Of a stretch of 64,000 nt of DNA, positions 5,635 through 16,416 are shown one piece after another (the stretch's first letter is position 1; each line of letters starts with the position of its first letter). The translations under genes were made by a program, and so were the position numbers. This DNA comes from Bacillota bacterium (lineage in GTDB: Bacteria; Bacillota; Dehalobacteriia; UBA4068): the NCBI GenBank assembly GCA_024679955.1, contig JAILCQ010000022.1, forward strand, positions 1-64,000, read 5' to 3'. The notes under the pieces were generated by a model. It searched no databases. It saw only the letters and a program-made list of their open reading frames with translations, and was not told where the DNA came from.

Positions 5635-5675
5635 GCTGCCGCGGCATACGCCGCCGGGGAAAGGAGAAGGAAACC

Positions 5676-6080
5676 ATGGTGAGTCGCCGCGTTGGCCGGC
5701 TTTCCGGAGAATTGCAAAAAGAAATCGCCGCCATCCTCAGCCGGGAGATCAAAGACCCCCGCCTGGGCCAGCTTTCGGTGGTATCCATCGATATCGCCCC
5801 GGACGGCTGCTCCGCCCGGATATATCTCAGCCCCATGGCCGGGACGGAAACGGCGGAAGAGGATATCACCCAGGCTTTGGATAAGGCCAAGGGCTATATC
5901 CGCCGGGAATTGGCAAAACGCCTGAAAACCCGGGCTGTGCCGGAGCTGTACTTTTATGTGGACAAAAGCATCGCCTACGGCGTGGCGATGATCAATAAAA
6001 TCAACAAGCAGATCCAGGCCGACGAGGCAGCCGCCCAAGGCCGTCCGCCGATCGAGGAAGGGGTATACAAAGAACCATGA
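5676..6080 (+). CDS. rbfA: Ribosome-binding factor A
   Basis: 134-residue RbfA, a KH-type 30S maturation factor. The ATG at 5676 follows AAGGAGAAGG and gives the family start MVSRRVGRLSGEL; core motifs include DPRLGQLSVVSIDI, KAKGYIRRELAKRL and VPELYFYVDKSIAYG. It overlaps the next gene by 4 bases (ATGA), indicating translational coupling. Separated from infB by an intrinsic terminator. Confidence 0.95.
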   Translation: MVSRRVGRLSGELQKEIAAILSREIKDPRLGQLSVVSIDIAPDGCSARIYLSPMAGTETAEEDITQALDKAKGYIRRELAKRLKTRAVPELYFYVDKSIAYGVAMINKINKQIQADEAAAQGRPPIEEGVYKEP

Positions 6081-7066
6081 ACGAATTGTACCGGCAGATG
6101 ATCGAGATTTTGCAAAGGCAGCGCAATCTATTGCTGGTGGGCCATGTGGAACCGGACGGCGATTGCGTGGGTTCCCTGTTGGGCCTATATTTTGCCTTTC
6201 AGGGACGGGAGAAAAACTGGCGTTTGGTGACGGAAGACGCGCCGGCGGCCTGTTTGGGTTTTCTGCCCGGCATCGATACGATCATTCGCCCGGAAGCGAT
6301 CGATATCGTTCCCCAGGCCATATTGACGGTGGATTGCTGGACGCTGAACCGCACCGGCTACTGGCTGTCGGACTATTTGCAGCCGGGGCTGCCCTTCTAC
6401 TGCATCGATCATCACCGGACTTCCCATTTCCAGGGGGACTTGGCGGTGATTGAGCCCCAGGCGGCGGCCTGCGGTGAAATCGTCGCCGCCCTGATGCAGC
6501 AGGCCGGGATAGAGCCGGACGCGGATACGGCCACGGCGCTGTATACCGCTTTGGCGGCGGATACCGGCTGCTTCCGCTTTGGCAGCACCCAAAGCCGCAC
6601 CCTGGCCCAGGCGGCCTGGCTGCGTCCCCAGGTGGATATCGAACAAATACGCATCGCCTTATACGAAAGCCGCAGCCGCGGCAATATGCATTTGTTGACC
6701 CAGGCGTTGAACCATCTGCATTACAGCTGCGACGGCGCTTTTTGCTACACCGTATTGCGCCGGGAGGATTTTCAGGAGGCCGGCCAGGCCCTGGCCAGCG
6801 ATATCGTGAATTTTACTTTGGTCTCCACCGGCGTCAAAATCGGTATGCTCCTGGAAGAACATGACGGCTATGTGAGGGTGAGCCTGCGCAGCCGTCCCGG
6901 CTATCCGGTAGATCAACTGGCCCGCGACCTGGGCGGCGGCGGTCACCGGCAGGCCGCCGGCTGCCGCCGGGAGGGGGATCTGCAAACGGAAGAAGCCGTG
7001 CTGACGGCGGCGGTGGAAAACTATCTGGCGCAGCTGGAACAAACGCCGCCGGCCGGCCGCGATTAA
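6077..7066 (+). CDS. nrnA: DHH-family phosphoesterase NrnA (nanoRNase/pAp phosphatase)
   Basis: 329-residue DHH/DHHA1 protein. Motifs are VGHVEPDGDCVGSLLGL (metal site), a DC pair near residue 84, CIDHHRTS (DHH motif) and the C-terminal DHHA1 glycine motif GGGGHRQAAG. In Bacillus, NrnA degrades short RNA oligomers and dephosphorylates pAp; the same is inferred here. Overlap of 4 bases with rbfA, and position before truB, is the usual Firmicutes arrangement. Confidence 0.9.
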   Translation: MNELYRQMIEILQRQRNLLLVGHVEPDGDCVGSLLGLYFAFQGREKNWRLVTEDAPAACLGFLPGIDTIIRPEAIDIVPQAILTVDCWTLNRTGYWLSDYLQPGLPFYCIDHHRTSHFQGDLAVIEPQAAACGEIVAALMQQAGIEPDADTATALYTALAADTGCFRFGSTQSRTLAQAAWLRPQVDIEQIRIALYESRSRGNMHLLTQALNHLHYSCDGAFCYTVLRREDFQEAGQALASDIVNFTLVSTGVKIGMLLEEHDGYVRVSLRSRPGYPVDQLARDLGGGGHRQAAGCRREGDLQTEEAVLTAAVENYLAQLEQTPPAGRD

Positions 7067-7092
7067 AAAAACGGGAATGGGTCAAGCGACAG

Positions 7093-8934
7093 ATGATGGA
7101 CGGTTTTATCAATTTAAACAAACACATAGGACCTTCTTCGCAAAGCGCCGTATCCGCTTTGAAGCGGCTGTTTCGGGTAAAGGCCGGGCATTGCGGCACC
7201 CTGGATCCGGCCGCTCAAGGCGTATTGCCGGTAGCGCTGGGCTCCGCCACCCGGCTCACGGAATATGTGATCGGCAATGGCAAAACCTATCGTACGGAAA
7301 TCGTCTTCGGCGTGGAAACCGATACCTATGACGGAGACGGGAACATCGTGGCCGAAGCGGACGCCTCTTCTTTGACCGCCGGTGATTTGCACCAGGCCCT
7401 GCTGGGTTTTTGCGGGGATATCATGCAGACGCCGCCGGCGGCCTCCGCCCTGAAGCAAGGGGGCGTGGCGGCCTATAAACGGCTGCGCCGGGGCGAAACC
7501 GTTACCATGCAGCCCCGTCCGGTGCATATCGACGCTTTGCAGCTGGAAAGCTTTCAGCCTGGCCGCCAGGCCCGGGCCACCCTGCGCATCCGCTGCGGCA
7601 AAGGGGTGTATGTGCGCTCTTTGGCCCATGATCTGGGCGCTTTGTTCGGCGTAGGCGGACATGTGGCGGCCCTTACCCGTTTGCAGGTGGGCATGTTCCG
7701 CATCGAACAGGCCTATACCGTAGAACAAATCGCCGCCATGGCCGCAGCCGGGGATTATTCTTTTCTGCTGCCCAGCAGCTATCCCTTGGCGCATATCCCG
7801 GTGTTTACGGTCCGGGACGACCAGCGGCAAACCATTCTCTACGGCAATCCCACGCCAATCGATCCCTATGCCGCCGCAGCGCCTCTTTATCGCATCGAAG
7901 ATTCGGAAGGCTGCCTGTTGGCCATAGGTACGGCCATACGCCAGCCGGACGGCGCTTGCCTGCTGCAGCCGGAAAAGGTGCTGCAGCCTCCGCCGCCCCC
8001 CAAGGGGCGAGGCTATCAGGCCGTGGCCATAGGCAATTTCGACGGGGTGCATTTGGGGCATCGGGCTTTGCTGCAGGATCTGGCGGAACAAAAACGCCTC
8101 TATGGCGGCAAGACCGCCGCCCTGACCTTTTCCCCCCATCCGCTGGCGGTGATCTGCGGCCAAGCGCCGCCGCTGTTAAGCAGCGACGAACTGAAAAAGC
8201 ATCTGATCTGCGACGTATATCAGGCGGACGATTTGATCACCCTGCCCTTTGACCGCCGTTTGATGAACGCTGCGCCGGAAGAATTCTTCCGGGAGGTCTT
8301 GCAAAACAAACTGCGGGCCCAAAGCGTGGTGGTGGGCTATAATTTCACCTTTGCCGCCCACGGCCACGGCACCGCCGCCACCCTGCGGCAATTGGGAGAG
8401 GCCGCCGGCATGGAGGTGCGCATCGTCGGCGAGATCGCCGGCGAATGCGGGCCGATATCCTCCAGCGCCATCCGCAACCATATCGCCAAAGGCGATATGC
8501 AGGCCGCCAACGCCATGCTGGGCTATTGGTACAGCCTGAGCGGCGTGGTCATCACCGGCAACCGCCTGGGCCGCACCATCGGTTTTCCCACCGCCAACGT
8601 AGCGCCCCGGGAGGATCTGGTCATGCCGCCTTTGGGGGTATACGCCGCCCGCGTCCTCTACGACGGCCAAAGCTTCGACGGCGTGGTCAATTTCGGCTAC
8701 AAGCCCACCATAGGCGGGGAAAACAAACCCCTGCTGGAGGCGCATATTTTCGACCGGGATATGGATCTGTACGGCCGGGAGATCACCGTGGCCCTGGGCA
8801 AATTCCTGCGGCCGGAAAAACGTTTTGCCGGCCTGCAGCAATTGCAGCGGCAAATCGATGAGGACAGCCAAAAAGCCCGGCTATTCCTGGCCGGCCAGGC
8901 AGCAAATTGCCACTTGCCAAAACCGATCGGCTAG
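7093..8934 (+). CDS. truB-ribF: Fused tRNA pseudouridine-55 synthase (TruB) and FAD synthetase/riboflavin kinase (RibF)
   Basis: One uninterrupted 613-codon frame. Residues 1 to about 295 are TruB: catalytic motif HCGTLDPAAQGVLPVALG with Asp38, then KTYRTEIVFGVETDTYDGDG, and GVYVRSLAHDLG. A proline-rich linker (QPPPPPKGRG, about residues 298-307) leads into RibF: GNFDGVHLGH (314-323), SPHP, SSSAIR, then the flavokinase domain with GRTIGFPTANV (about 493) and NFGYKPT. TruB makes Psi55 in tRNA; RibF turns riboflavin into FMN and FAD. The genes are normally separate neighbours, so loss of the stop/start between them is the simple explanation. Start ATG could be 7093 or 7096. Confidence 0.92.
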   Translation: MMDGFINLNKHIGPSSQSAVSALKRLFRVKAGHCGTLDPAAQGVLPVALGSATRLTEYVIGNGKTYRTEIVFGVETDTYDGDGNIVAEADASSLTAGDLHQALLGFCGDIMQTPPAASALKQGGVAAYKRLRRGETVTMQPRPVHIDALQLESFQPGRQARATLRIRCGKGVYVRSLAHDLGALFGVGGHVAALTRLQVGMFRIEQAYTVEQIAAMAAAGDYSFLLPSSYPLAHIPVFTVRDDQRQTILYGNPTPIDPYAAAAPLYRIEDSEGCLLAIGTAIRQPDGACLLQPEKVLQPPPPPKGRGYQAVAIGNFDGVHLGHRALLQDLAEQKRLYGGKTAALTFSPHPLAVICGQAPPLLSSDELKKHLICDVYQADDLITLPFDRRLMNAAPEEFFREVLQNKLRAQSVVVGYNFTFAAHGHGTAATLRQLGEAAGMEVRIVGEIAGECGPISSSAIRNHIAKGDMQAANAMLGYWYSLSGVVITGNRLGRTIGFPTANVAPREDLVMPPLGVYAARVLYDGQSFDGVVNFGYKPTIGGENKPLLEAHIFDRDMDLYGREITVALGKFLRPEKRFAGLQQLQRQIDEDSQKARLFLAGQAANCHLPKPIG

Positions 8935-9034: not shown

Positions 9035-9301
9035 ATGATGGACACGGCAACCAAACAGGAAATCATTGCCAAATATCAAACCCATGAAGGCGATACCGGT
9101 TCCCCGGAAGTACAAATCGCCATTCTCTCTTATCAAATCAACCATTTGACCGAGCACTTGAAAGTTCACAAAAAAGACTTCCATAGCCGCCGCGGCCTGT
9201 TGAAAATGGTCGGCCGCCGCCGCAGCCTGCTGAACTATCTGAAATCCAAAGATATCGACCGCTATCGGAAGATCATCACCAGCCTCGGTTTGAGACGCTA
9301 A
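9035..9301 (+). CDS. rpsO: Small ribosomal subunit protein S15
   Basis: 88-residue S15, an early 16S rRNA binder. Family signatures are [38 protein letters not shown] and [16 protein letters not shown] at 9018-9024 is well spaced for ATG 9035 (9038 is possible). It has its own promoter and terminator. In many bacteria pnp follows; here the hydrogenase operon follows instead. Confidence 0.97.
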
Positions 9302-10405: not shown

Positions 10406-10425
10406 ATTTGAGTGGAGGTGAACCC

Positions 10426-13400
10426 GTGAGTATCAAAACTATACAGGATTTGGCAAACATCAAACAATCCTTTAACGACAAAAAAGCTGCCTACAAACAG
10501 CGCATTTACGTTTGCGGCGGCGGCGGTTGTATTTCTTCCAATTGTCTGGAAACCAAAGACGCGGTGGTTCAAAGCCTTAAGAACAACCACCTGGAAGACA
10601 CGGTAGACGTGGTCTTCACCGGTTGTATGGGCACCTGCGCCGTGGGCCCGGTGATATACATTGAGCCGGACGACGTATTCTATACCAAAGTTACCGCGCA
10701 AAAAGCCGAAGAGATCATCCAATCCCATATCATCGGCGGCAAAGTCCTGACCGATTATACCTTCTTCGACAACAACCTGCAGCAGCATATCCCGCATCTG
10801 GCGGATATCCCCTTCTTTGCGCAGCAGGTTCAGATCGCTCTGCGCAACTGCGGTAAAATCGACTTCGCTTCCGTAGAAAACTACATCGCCAAAGACGGTT
10901 ATGCGGCCATCGCCAAAGCCGTTACTTCCATGACCCCGGCGGAAGTGGTCGACGAAGTGAAGAAATCCGGTTTGCGCGGCCGTGGCGGCGGCGGTTTCCC
11001 CACCGGCATCAAATGGGAAGCCGGTATGAATGCGGTGGGCGATCAGAAATATATCGTCTGCAACGCGGACGAAGGCGATCCCGGCGCGTTTATGGACAGA
11101 AGCTTGCTGGAAGGCGACCCCCACGGCATCATCGAAGGTATGATGCTGGGCGGTTATGCCATCGGCGCCAACATGGGCTATATTTATGTCCGCGCTGAGT
11201 ATCCTATCGCCGTGGACCGCTTGGGCGCGGCCATTGAAGAAGCCCGCAAGCAAGGCATTCTGGGCAACAACATCTTCGGCAGCAACTTCAACTTCGATCT
11301 GGAGATCCGCATCGGCGCCGGCGCTTTCGTCTGCGGCGAAGAAACCGCTTTGATGGCCTCCATCGAAGGCGAGCGCGGCGAACCGAAACAAAAACCGCCG
11401 TTCCCCTTTGAACGCGGTCTGTACGGCTGCCCCACCATCATCAACAACGTGGAAACTTATGCCAACGTGCCCGCCATCATCAACAAAGGCGCCGACTGGT
11501 TCGCTTCTTTCGGCGTGGGCAAGAGCAAAGGCACCAAAGTTTTCGCTTTGGCCGGCGATATCGTCAACACCGGTTTGGTGGAAGTTCCCATGGGCATCAG
11601 CCTGGGCGATTTGATCTACAAAATCGGCGGCGGCATCCGCGGCGGCAAGAGCTTCAAAGCCGCTCAGGTCGGCGGACCTTCCGGCGGCTGCCTGACCAAA
11701 GAATATCTGAACACCTCCGTGGATTATGAATCCCTCACCGCCCTCGGGGCGATCATGGGTTCCGGCGGTTTGATCGTCATGAGCGAAGACACCTGTATGG
11801 TGGATACCGCCCGTTTCTTCCTGGACTTCATTCAGGACGAAAGCTGCGGCAAATGCACACCCTGCCGTTTGGGCACCAAACGCATGTTGGAGATCCTGCA
11901 GCGGATCACCAAGGGCGAAGGCACGCCGGAAGATCTGGACGCCTTGGAAGAATTGGCCCACACCATCAAAGACACGGCTATGTGCGGCCTGGGACAAACC
12001 GCTCCCAATCCCATCCTCTCCACGATGAAGAACTTCCGTCGTGAATACGAGGATCACATCCTGGACAAACACTGCACCGCCGGCGTTTGCTCCGCCATGT
12101 TCATCTCTCCCTGCCAGAATGCCTGCCCCGCCGGCATCAACGTGCCCGGCTATATGGCTCTGATCCAGGAAGGCAAATTCATCGAAGCTTACAACCTGAT
12201 CCGTCGCGAGAATCCGTTCCCGGCAGTCTGCGGCCGCATCTGCACCCATCCCTGCGAAGCCAAATGCCGCCGCGGCCAAAGAGACGAAGCCTTGGCGATC
12301 TGCGATCTGAAACGTTTCGTGGCCGATTATGCTATGAGCCATGAAGACGAAATGGTCAACGACGAAGCGCCGGTAGCCAAAAACGGCAAGAAAGTGGCGA
12401 TCATCGGCGCCGGCCCCTCCGGCCTGACCTGCGCCCATTATCTGGCCCGTCTCGGTTATGAAGTGGACGTTTTCGAATCTCAACCCATCGCCGGCGGCGT
12501 TTTGGCCTACGGCATTCCCGAATACCGTCTGCCCAACGATGTGTTGGAATATGAAGTCAACCAAGTCCGTCAACAAGGCGTCAACATTCACCTCAACTGC
12601 GAAGTGGGCAAGGACGTTTCCTTCCAAAGCCTGCGCCAGGACTATGACGCCGTATATGTAGCCACCGGTACCCAATTCCCGAACAAAGCCGGCGTGGATG
12701 GCGAAGACCTGAAAGGCGTATACTATGGTCTGGACTTCCTCCATGACGTAGCTTTGGGCAAACCTGTCCAGATGGGCAAAAAGGTAGCCGTCATCGGCGG
12801 CGGCAACACCGCCATCGACGCGGCCCGCACCGCCGTCCGCATGGGCGCGGAGAGCGTGACCATCGTCTACCGCCGCACCCGCGACGATATGCCCGCCGAC
12901 AAACGGGAAATCGCCGAAGCTCTGGAAGAAGGCGTACAACTGATGACCTTGACCGCTCCGGTTCGCTTCGTGGGCGAAAACGGACAACTGAAAGGCATGG
13001 ATTGCGACAAGATGCAACTGGGCGAATATGACAGAGGCGGACGCCGCAAACCCGTGAAGGTCGAGAATTCTCAATTCTTCCTGGAAGCGGATATGATCAT
13101 CCCCGCCATCAGCCAGCATGCCGACTTCCCCTTCATCACCCAAGATGATATCCAGCTGACCTCCTGGGGTTCTCTGGTCACCGACCGCGCCAATCTGATG
13201 ACTTCTCTGGACGGCGTATTCGCCGGCGGCGACGTGGCCCGCGGCTCCGATATGGCCATCACCGCCATCGCCGACGGCAAAAAAGCCGCTGCCAGCATCG
13301 ATAAGTACCTGGGCGGCAAAGGCGAACTGAACAAAGGCGAAGATATTGAAATCCCCGCCGGCACCGTGGACGATGATCCCGCTGCATACAATCGTTTCGC

Positions 13401-13518
13401 CATGGAAATCCTCTCCCCCGAAACGCGCAGAAACAACTTCCGGGAAGTGGTCCAAGGTTACCGTAAATTGAACGCTGTTGCGGAAGCGAACCGTTGCCTC
13501 CGCTGCGACAGAAAGTAG
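10426..13518 (+). CDS. hydB: Hydrogenase subunit B: NuoF-like flavoprotein fused to GltD-like NAD(P)H oxidoreductase
   Basis: 1030 residues from GTG 10426 (GGAGGTG at 10414-10420). Order: thioredoxin-like [2Fe-2S] domain with CGGGGCISSNC and CMGTC (about 20-95); NuoF FMN/NADH site GLRGRGGGGFPTG (about 183) and CNADEGDPGAFMDR; SLBB region; [4Fe-4S] motif ESCGKCTPCRLG (about 474). From about residue 560 comes a GltD-type module with CQNACPAG and CGRICTHPCEAKC cysteines, FAD site IIGAGPSGL (about 658) and NADPH-type site VIGGGNTAID followed by YRR (about 790). Typical HydB proteins end after the NuoF part. The fusion suggests NAD and NADP (or a second flavin) in one electron-bifurcating complex; that is inference. 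Confidence 0.93.
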   Translation: MSIKTIQDLANIKQSFNDKKAAYKQRIYVCGGGGCISSNCLETKDAVVQSLKNNHLEDTVDVVFTGCMGTCAVGPVIYIEPDDVFYTKVTAQKAEEIIQSHIIGGKVLTDYTFFDNNLQQHIPHLADIPFFAQQVQIALRNCGKIDFASVENYIAKDGYAAIAKAVTSMTPAEVVDEVKKSGLRGRGGGGFPTGIKWEAGMNAVGDQKYIVCNADEGDPGAFMDRSLLEGDPHGIIEGMMLGGYAIGANMGYIYVRAEYPIAVDRLGAAIEEARKQGILGNNIFGSNFNFDLEIRIGAGAFVCGEETALMASIEGERGEPKQKPPFPFERGLYGCPTIINNVETYANVPAIINKGADWFASFGVGKSKGTKVFALAGDIVNTGLVEVPMGISLGDLIYKIGGGIRGGKSFKAAQVGGPSGGCLTKEYLNTSVDYESLTALGAIMGSGGLIVMSEDTCMVDTARFFLDFIQDESCGKCTPCRLGTKRMLEILQRITKGEGTPEDLDALEELAHTIKDTAMCGLGQTAPNPILSTMKNFRREYEDHILDKHCTAGVCSAMFISPCQNACPAGINVPGYMALIQEGKFIEAYNLIRRENPFPAVCGRICTHPCEAKCRRGQRDEALAICDLKRFVADYAMSHEDEMVNDEAPVAKNGKKVAIIGAGPSGLTCAHYLARLGYEVDVFESQPIAGGVLAYGIPEYRLPNDVLEYEVNQVRQQGVNIHLNCEVGKDVSFQSLRQDYDAVYVATGTQFPNKAGVDGEDLKGVYYGLDFLHDVALGKPVQMGKKVAVIGGGNTAIDAARTAVRMGAESVTIVYRRTRDDMPADKREIAEALEEGVQLMTLTAPVRFVGENGQLKGMDCDKMQLGEYDRGGRRKPVKVENSQFFLEADMIIPAISQHADFPFITQDDIQLTSWGSLVTDRANLMTSLDGVFAGGDVARGSDMAITAIADGKKAAASIDKYLGGKGELNKGEDIEIPAGTVDDDPAAYNRFAMEILSPETRRNNFREVVQGYRKLNAVAEANRCLRCDRK

Positions 13519-13529
13519 GAGGTGAAAAA

Positions 13530-15335
13530 ATGGCTAATATGGTAAATATCACGATCAACGGCAAAGCGATCTCCGTTGAAGAAGGCAAAACGATTCTTCA
13601 GGCTGCCAAAGAAAACAATATTTATATCCCCACCCTGTGCTATCTGGAAGGTATCCACCAATTCGGCGGCTGCCGCATGTGTATGGTAGAAGTGGAAGGC
13701 GCCCGTACCTTAATGGCCTCCTGCATGGTTCAGGTTAAAGAAGGTATGGTGATCCACACCAATACCGCCAGAGCGCGCCATGCCCGCAAAGTTATGCTGG
13801 AATTGATCCTTTCCAACCATCCGCAGGATTGCTTGAGCTGCCCCAGAAGCGGCAGCTGCGAGCTGCAGGAATTGTCCCAAAAACTGGGCATCACCGAAGC
13901 CCGTTTCAAAGGCGAAAAATCCATTGACATTCTGGACGTTACGCCCTCTATCACCAGAGACACTTCCAAGTGCATCCTCTGCCGCCGCTGCGTATCCGTC
14001 TGCAACAAGATCCAGCATGTGGGCATTTTGAACGCGCAAAACCGCGGTTTCAAAACCGTCATCGGCCCCGCTATGGATCTTTCCATGAACGATGTGGACT
14101 GCGCGCTGTGCGGACAGTGCGTGACCGTTTGCCCGGTCAACGCCTTGCAGGAAACCGACGCCATCAAACCGGTATGGGAAGCCATCAACGACCCGAACAA
14201 ACGGGTGATCGTGCAAGTGGCCCCTGCGGTGAGAGTGGGTATCGGCCAGGAATTCGGCCTGCCCATCGGCAAAGCCACCACCGGCAAACTGGCCTCCGCT
14301 TTGAGAGAATTGATGTTCGACGATGTTTTCGACACCAACTTTGCCGCCGACTTGACCATCATGGAAGAAGGCACCGAATTCCTGACCAGAGCCAAAGCGG
14401 CTTTGACCGGCGGCCATGCGGTCCTGCCGATGATCACCAGCTGCAGCCCGGGCTGGATCAAATTCGTGGAACACACCTTCCCCGAAGAATTGGATCATAT
14501 CTCCACCTGCAAATCTCCGCATATGATGGAAGGCGCCGTGATCAAATCCTACTACGCGGAAAAACTGGGTATCGACCCCAAAGATATGTACGTCGTATCG
14601 GTCATGCCCTGCACCGCCAAGAAATTCGAAATCACCCGTCCGGAAATGGTCAACAACGGCGTTCCCAATGTGGACGCGGTGCTGACGGTTCGGGAACTGG
14701 CCAGAATGATCAAAGAAGCCGGCATCGACTTCGCCAACCTGCCTGAAACCGATTTCGACGCTCCCTTGGGTCTGGGCAGCGGCGCGGCGGACATCTTCGG
14801 CGTCACCGGCGGCGTTATGGAAGCGGCTTTGCGTACCGTTTATGAACTGGTTACCGGTCGCGAACTGCCTTTCGATAAGCTGCATGTCACCCCCATCGTG
14901 GGCTTCCAGCAAATCAAAGTGGCCGAGCTGAAATTTGAAAACGTCAAACCCGATTTCAGCTTCCTGGAAGGCTTCACCGCCAAAGTCGCCGTTACCAGCG
15001 GCTTGGAAGGTGCCCGCAAACTGTTGGAACAGGTTGCCAAGGGCGAAGGCGGCTATCACTTCATCGAAGTGATGGGTTGCCCCGGCGGCTGCATCGCCGG
15101 CGGCGGTCAGCCCAGACTGACCGACCAAACGGTGAAAGAGTTGCGTATGGCTGGTATTTACGAAGAGGACGAAGGCAAGACTCTGCGTAAATCCCATGAG
15201 AACAAAGATATTCAAACCCTGTACGCCGAATATCTGAAAGAGCCCTTGGGCCATAAATCTCATGAGCTGCTGCATACCACTTACACCAAACGTGGAGAAT
15301 TCAATGAATATCTCCATCCGGAACAAGCTGAATAA
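13530..15335 (+). CDS. hydA: [FeFe]-hydrogenase catalytic subunit A
   Basis: 601-residue monometallic-cluster-rich hydrogenase. N-terminal [2Fe-2S] domain (GGCRMC), His-ligated [4Fe-4S] motif (HPQDCLSCPRSGSC), two [4Fe-4S] motifs (CILCRRC and CALCGQCVTVCP), then the H-cluster domain: TSCSPGW (303-309), MPCTAKKFE (from 359) and MGCPGGCIAGGGQP (from 515). The L1 motif has Ser306 where CpI-type enzymes have a proton-relay cysteine. ATG 13530 follows AGGAGGTG. With HydB and HydC it should form a soluble NAD(P)H/ferredoxin-linked hydrogenase. Ends at a strong terminator. Confidence 0.96.
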   Translation: MANMVNITINGKAISVEEGKTILQAAKENNIYIPTLCYLEGIHQFGGCRMCMVEVEGARTLMASCMVQVKEGMVIHTNTARARHARKVMLELILSNHPQDCLSCPRSGSCELQELSQKLGITEARFKGEKSIDILDVTPSITRDTSKCILCRRCVSVCNKIQHVGILNAQNRGFKTVIGPAMDLSMNDVDCALCGQCVTVCPVNALQETDAIKPVWEAINDPNKRVIVQVAPAVRVGIGQEFGLPIGKATTGKLASALRELMFDDVFDTNFAADLTIMEEGTEFLTRAKAALTGGHAVLPMITSCSPGWIKFVEHTFPEELDHISTCKSPHMMEGAVIKSYYAEKLGIDPKDMYVVSVMPCTAKKFEITRPEMVNNGVPNVDAVLTVRELARMIKEAGIDFANLPETDFDAPLGLGSGAADIFGVTGGVMEAALRTVYELVTGRELPFDKLHVTPIVGFQQIKVAELKFENVKPDFSFLEGFTAKVAVTSGLEGARKLLEQVAKGEGGYHFIEVMGCPGGCIAGGGQPRLTDQTVKELRMAGIYEEDEGKTLRKSHENKDIQTLYAEYLKEPLGHKSHELLHTTYTKRGEFNEYLHPEQAE

Positions 15336-16323: not shown

Positions 16324-16416
16324 GGAGAAGTCGCGTAGTTTGGTCGAGCGCGCACGACTGGAAATCGTGTAGGCCTCAAAAGGGTCTCGAGGGTTCGAAT
16401 CCCTCCTTCTCCGCCA
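16324..16416 (+). tRNA. tRNA-Ser, anticodon GGA, with encoded CCA
   Basis: Acceptor arms GGAGAAG (16324-16330) and CTTCTCC (16406-16412) pair fully, G73 and CCA (16414-16416) follow. Anticodon stem CACGA/TCGTG encloses CTGGAAA with anticodon GGA at 16360-16362; a long variable arm and the GGTTCGAATCC T-loop identify a class II serine tRNA reading UCC/UCU. Confidence 0.96.

Follow-up and report, generated by a model that had tools for sequence, protein, structure and literature searches.

TruB and RibF are textbook enzymes, and the truB-ribF neighbourhood is common and known as two genes. In Blautia these form a truB-ribF operon of two genes of 239 and 278 amino acids (PMC4630832). RibR of B. 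subtilis is a monofunctional riboflavin kinase (cited in PMC2972280). A search of the open-access literature found no description of a TruB-RibF fusion. The locus analysed here carries both enzymes in one open reading frame. It lies in the window, that is, the whole 64,000-nucleotide stretch of DNA under analysis.

Anatomy of the fused gene and its locus

The fused truB::ribF gene occupies positions 7093–8934 on the plus strand, runs from an ATG start to a TAG stop and translates as one open frame of 613 amino acids with zero internal stops. Pfam places TruB_N at residues 28–174, TruB_C_2 at 175–218, FAD_syn at 309–458 and Flavokinase at 476–598, each above its curated cut-off. Both NCBIfam equivalog models also match the protein, TIGR00431 (TruB) with 202.7 bits against a cut-off of 151.45 and TIGR00083 (RibF) with 253.4 bits against 184.35. 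The sequence-only reading, which had placed TruB and RibF in one 613-residue protein, was correct in this respect.

The TruB half (7093–7983, plus strand; residues 1–297) comprises the catalytic domain and the C-terminal domain. The TruB catalytic-Asp motif GHxGxLDP is present as GHCGTLDP; its aspartate, Asp38, lies within GHCGTLDPAAQG and aligns with the motif GHTGALDPLATG of the TruB structures 1k8w/1r3f. The equivalent aspartate is established as the catalytic residue of TruB. Nearly the whole length of the TruB structure 1r3e, from T. maritima, aligns to residues 4–283, and the TruB half is therefore full length.

The RibF half consists of an FAD synthetase (FMN adenylyltransferase) module at 8017–8466 with the motifs HxGH and SSxxIR, and a riboflavin kinase module at 8518–8886 with PTAN and GxY, both on the plus strand. 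As defined for these two activities (PMC2972280), the adenylyltransferase motifs (H/T)xGH and SST/SxxR appear as VHLGH and ISSSAIR, and the kinase motifs PTAN and GxY as GFPTAN and GVY. The complete motif sets that had been claimed for TruB, including Asp38, and for both modules of RibF are thus all found. Between the halves lies the Pro-rich linker QPPPPPKGRG (7984–8013, plus strand; 10 residues, 298–307). It stands where a proline-rich linker had been proposed, but it is kept only within the window's genus, and fused relatives elsewhere have different linkers. The RibF half lacks the usual short leader and begins at the first strand after QPPPPPKGRG. An AlphaFold2 model of the fusion, built from two sequences, has a mean pLDDT of 32, too low to be informative on how the halves are arranged.

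Upstream of the fused gene, on the same plus strand, lie rbfA (RBFA; 5640–6080, where 5640 is the first base of the stretch scanned) and a DHH/DHHA1 phosphoesterase gene (6077–7066); rpsO, encoding S15, follows downstream (9035–9301, plus strand). In nearly all fused loci with a long enough flank the DHH phosphoesterase gene is upstream in the same order, and rpsO is downstream in the tested fused and unfused relatives whose flank is long enough. Both adjoin the locus in fused and unfused relatives alike; together with rbfA they are ordinary neighbours of truB-ribF. The fused ATG stands 26 bases past the stop of the upstream gene, and the sequence before it (7073–7095, GGGAATGGGTCAAGCGACAG) shows no strong ribosome-binding site; in a congener, AGGAG is found about 15 bases ahead of the fused gene's ATG. 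Searched with Rfam, the whole window shows neither a riboswitch nor another regulatory RNA close to the fused gene, the sole match being a tRNA gene at 16324–16413 (plus strand). Further along the same strand, a 1036-residue frame (10408–13518) combines 2Fe-2S thioredoxin-like, NuoF-like FMN/NADH and GltD-like FAD oxidoreductase parts with Fer4_20. It directly precedes the large subunit of an iron-only hydrogenase (13494–15335) and would be a fused flavin subunit of a probable NAD-linked hydrogenase.

Distribution and origin of the join

The source genome of the window, a 1.92 Mb draft in 44 contigs that is 95.7% complete, yields one match each for TruB, FAD synthetase and flavokinase, all in the fused gene. 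In a draft of this kind an assembly or sequencing artefact could have joined two genes. However, the stop-free join recurs in an independent congener at 79% identity (L003; also the public record L052, from an uncultured Peptococcaceae bacterium) and in 12 further genomes of the window's family. We consider the chance of an artefact to be practically nil and reject this explanation: the TruB-RibF join is real and inherited. The earlier call of a gene fusion stands, and the refutation it had named, that no relative shares the fusion, does not hold, with 14 fused genomes in one family and three in another.

The window's family, f1, is Peptococcaceae-like and was sampled with 20 genomes; all the relatives are drafts of varying completeness. 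A match was obtained in 18 of them, and 14 of these 18 have the stop-free fusion, the other four (G006, G009, G010 and G012) having two separate genes. Across the class (43 genomes), the fusion occurs beyond f1 only in three genomes of family f7. In a sample of 398 genomes from the phylum, all listed matches that span both halves outside f1 and f7 contain at least one stop codon, at a sensitivity at which a long-linker fusion could register as two separate matches. At this sensitivity and among the stronger matches, which are those listed, the fusion is seen in f1 and f7 alone. Apparent long frames over both genes in other members of the phylum were examined separately, and in 11 of the 11 checked a stop codon separates truB from ribF. 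Outside f1 and f7, the relatives that were checked carry the two as separate genes side by side, in agreement with the sequence-only reading that this is the usual state in Firmicutes.

In a tree of both halves the 14 fused f1 rows form one clade (support 98/94) and the four unfused members of the family, among which it is nested, branch outside it, which indicates that the f1 fusion arose once; the same tree gives no instance of a reversal to separate genes. The f7 fusions form a clade of their own (support 100/100), and a topology constrained to unite every fused row is rejected, though weakly (AU p = 0.039). The junctions also differ: a longer leader survives in the f7 fusions, with an ATG close to where RibF would itself start, and is lost in the f1 fusions. 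The AU rejection and the differing junctions make two origins likely, and we regard the f7 fusion as a likely, though not certain, second and independent event. In a tree of RibF alone, which has low resolution, the fused row G005 stands apart from the other fused rows.

The unfused relatives point to a short route. The complete junction was read for G012 and G023, and there the two genes overlap in an ATGA that holds the ribF start and, in a different frame, the truB stop; in other unfused relatives a few bases lie between stop and start. With stop and start overlapping or nearly touching, a fusion needs merely a small change. We propose that in the ancestor of most of f1 truB and ribF already lay adjacent in the order rbfA-DHH-truB-ribF-rpsO, the stop of the first abutting the start of the second or separated from it by a few bases. 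A minor alteration there would then have removed the truB stop and the N-terminal start of RibF, and the join would have arisen once, in that ancestor.

A probable single polypeptide and the decay of RibF modules

Our preferred explanation, in which we place considerable confidence, is that the gene makes a single trifunctional polypeptide in which TruB would be tethered to RibF, with three active sites on one chain, a join that arose once and halves that act independently. Around the junction, the window species and its congener have no in-frame start codon in common: where the fused gene of the window has GTG296 and GTG311 the congener has GTA, and the ATG codons of the congener are missing from the window's gene. 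This makes a single intact trifunctional protein the most likely product.

Alternatively, there could be two products, the fusion being cut at the linker or RibF being initiated internally as well. The linker in the window's genus is Pro-rich and probably exposed, and an ATG stands near the expected RibF start in all three f7 genomes, yet no linker site is conserved across genera and the window's genus has no in-frame start near the junction common to both species; two products therefore seem very unlikely. The same two observations count against the earlier suggestion that the protein may still be cleaved into two. In f7, internal initiation of RibF is possible, to judge from the junctions: the independent-looking fusions L017, L020 and L021 retain the ATG near RibF's own start, and in L021 the sequence AAGGAGG lies upstream of it, such that RibF might also be made alone.

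Both halves of the fusion are under purifying selection. Comparison with the congener gives dN/dS values of 0.12 for TruB, 0.04 for the FAD synthetase and 0.06 for the kinase; with dS near saturation, only the lowness of these ratios is informative.

The strongest indication that the flavin half is in use comes from three f1 relatives, G003, G011 and G017. Their fusions have a kinase module that lacks PTAN and is missed by the flavokinase model, and each genome carries a second, separate RibF (L062, L060 and L061, respectively). In these second proteins the kinase module is intact, while the FAD-synthetase half keeps HxGH and has lost NFxFG and SSxxR. A second flavokinase match is found in f1 only in these three genomes; in the remaining f1 genomes with a match, the one flavokinase is either fused to truB or next to it. 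At 83–84% completeness, these three drafts carry some risk of contamination, although every one of them shows the pattern. Judged by these motifs, the fused kinase and the separate RibF present a reciprocal division of labour. The second RibFs form one clade (support 100/100), and the fused kinase seems to have decayed on two occasions, once in G003 and once in the genus of G011 and G017. Such reciprocal decay argues for an FAD-synthetase module that is functional in the cell as part of the fusion, and for a kinase activity that a separate protein can provide in trans; it implies that the flavin half is in use, its FAD-synthetase part probably being kept as a working enzyme. By the same motif evidence, the module always kept with TruB appears to be the FAD synthetase. 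One genome of family f6 also has a second RibF-like protein (G041:C1:5382040-5382855), which matches the FAD synthetase strongly and the kinase weakly.

Possible coupling of the halves and comparison with known systems

From the conserved motifs we infer that the fused enzymes are catalytically active. The TruB half would convert U55 of tRNA to pseudouridine, and the RibF half would phosphorylate riboflavin to FMN and adenylate FMN to FAD. The linker would be a short, freely drifting tether, and the halves most likely act independently, with little or no crosstalk. The join would act mainly by holding the two halves at a 1:1 ratio, both being translated from a single start, and may also influence where they are placed.

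The sequence-only reading held that the fusion ties tRNA modification to flavin supply. The covalent link is there; the distributions of other enzymes lend no support to a functional coupling. TrmFO, an FAD-dependent tRNA methylase, is matched in 43 of the 43 class genomes (40 of them over the cut-off), which leaves no signal of a presence/absence link between it and the fusion. Lumazine synthase, of riboflavin synthesis, turns up in some fused genomes and was not detected in others, its occurrence among unfused genomes is patchy too, and a link to riboflavin self-sufficiency was likewise discarded. With TrmFO everywhere and lumazine synthase patchy, presence and absence give no sign of coupling.

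The idea that tethering serves to bring the synthesis of flavins to the tRNA has points in its favour, in that the fusion is fixed across many genera and has probably arisen twice, the FAD-synthetase module stays joined to TruB also in the fusions with a decayed kinase, and TrmFO is present in the fused genomes. Yet all genomes of the class have TrmFO, with the fusion or without it, some f1 members have separate genes, the linkers are not conserved, and the stop and start that touch or nearly touch in unfused relatives make a neutral route easy. We hold this idea to be very unlikely, together with its variants, such as delivery of FAD to TrmFO (m5U54), delivery of FMN to Dus enzymes at neighbouring positions, or control of modification by flavin level. 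That TruB and FAD synthetase might be kept joined since FAD made near the tRNA matters, for example in the FAD-dependent methylation of U54 beside Psi55, and that the kinase step can relocate to a protein of its own, as in G003, G011 and G017, we rate as distinctly unlikely. The reading we retain is that of two tethered halves working independently.

The locus offers a clean natural case in which neighbouring genes of unrelated pathways became one protein, probably twice, with sister lineages still unfused. The reciprocal decay in three relatives shows how a bifunctional flavin enzyme can re-split in evolution, and these relatives are ready comparisons on whether the tether has a function. An annotation that names the fusion after just one of its halves would leave the other enzyme seemingly absent from the genome.

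Compared with known systems, the fusion shares with TruB (TIGR00431; 1k8w/1r3f, 1r3e) the full domain set, the catalytic-Asp motif and the length through the C-terminal domain, but it bears RibF at its C-terminus. With RibF (TIGR00083; 2x0k, 1mrz) it shares both modules and their motifs; it differs in that the fused RibF has no start or leader of its own and is joined to TruB by its N-terminus, and in that the kinase module has decayed in the fusions of three relatives. The truB-ribF pair of Blautia matches the fusion in order and strand, with two genes there and one frame here. The second RibF of G003, G011 and G017 resembles RibR in appearing kinase-only; unlike RibR, these proteins keep a decayed FAD-synthetase half and complement a TruB fusion whose kinase has decayed.
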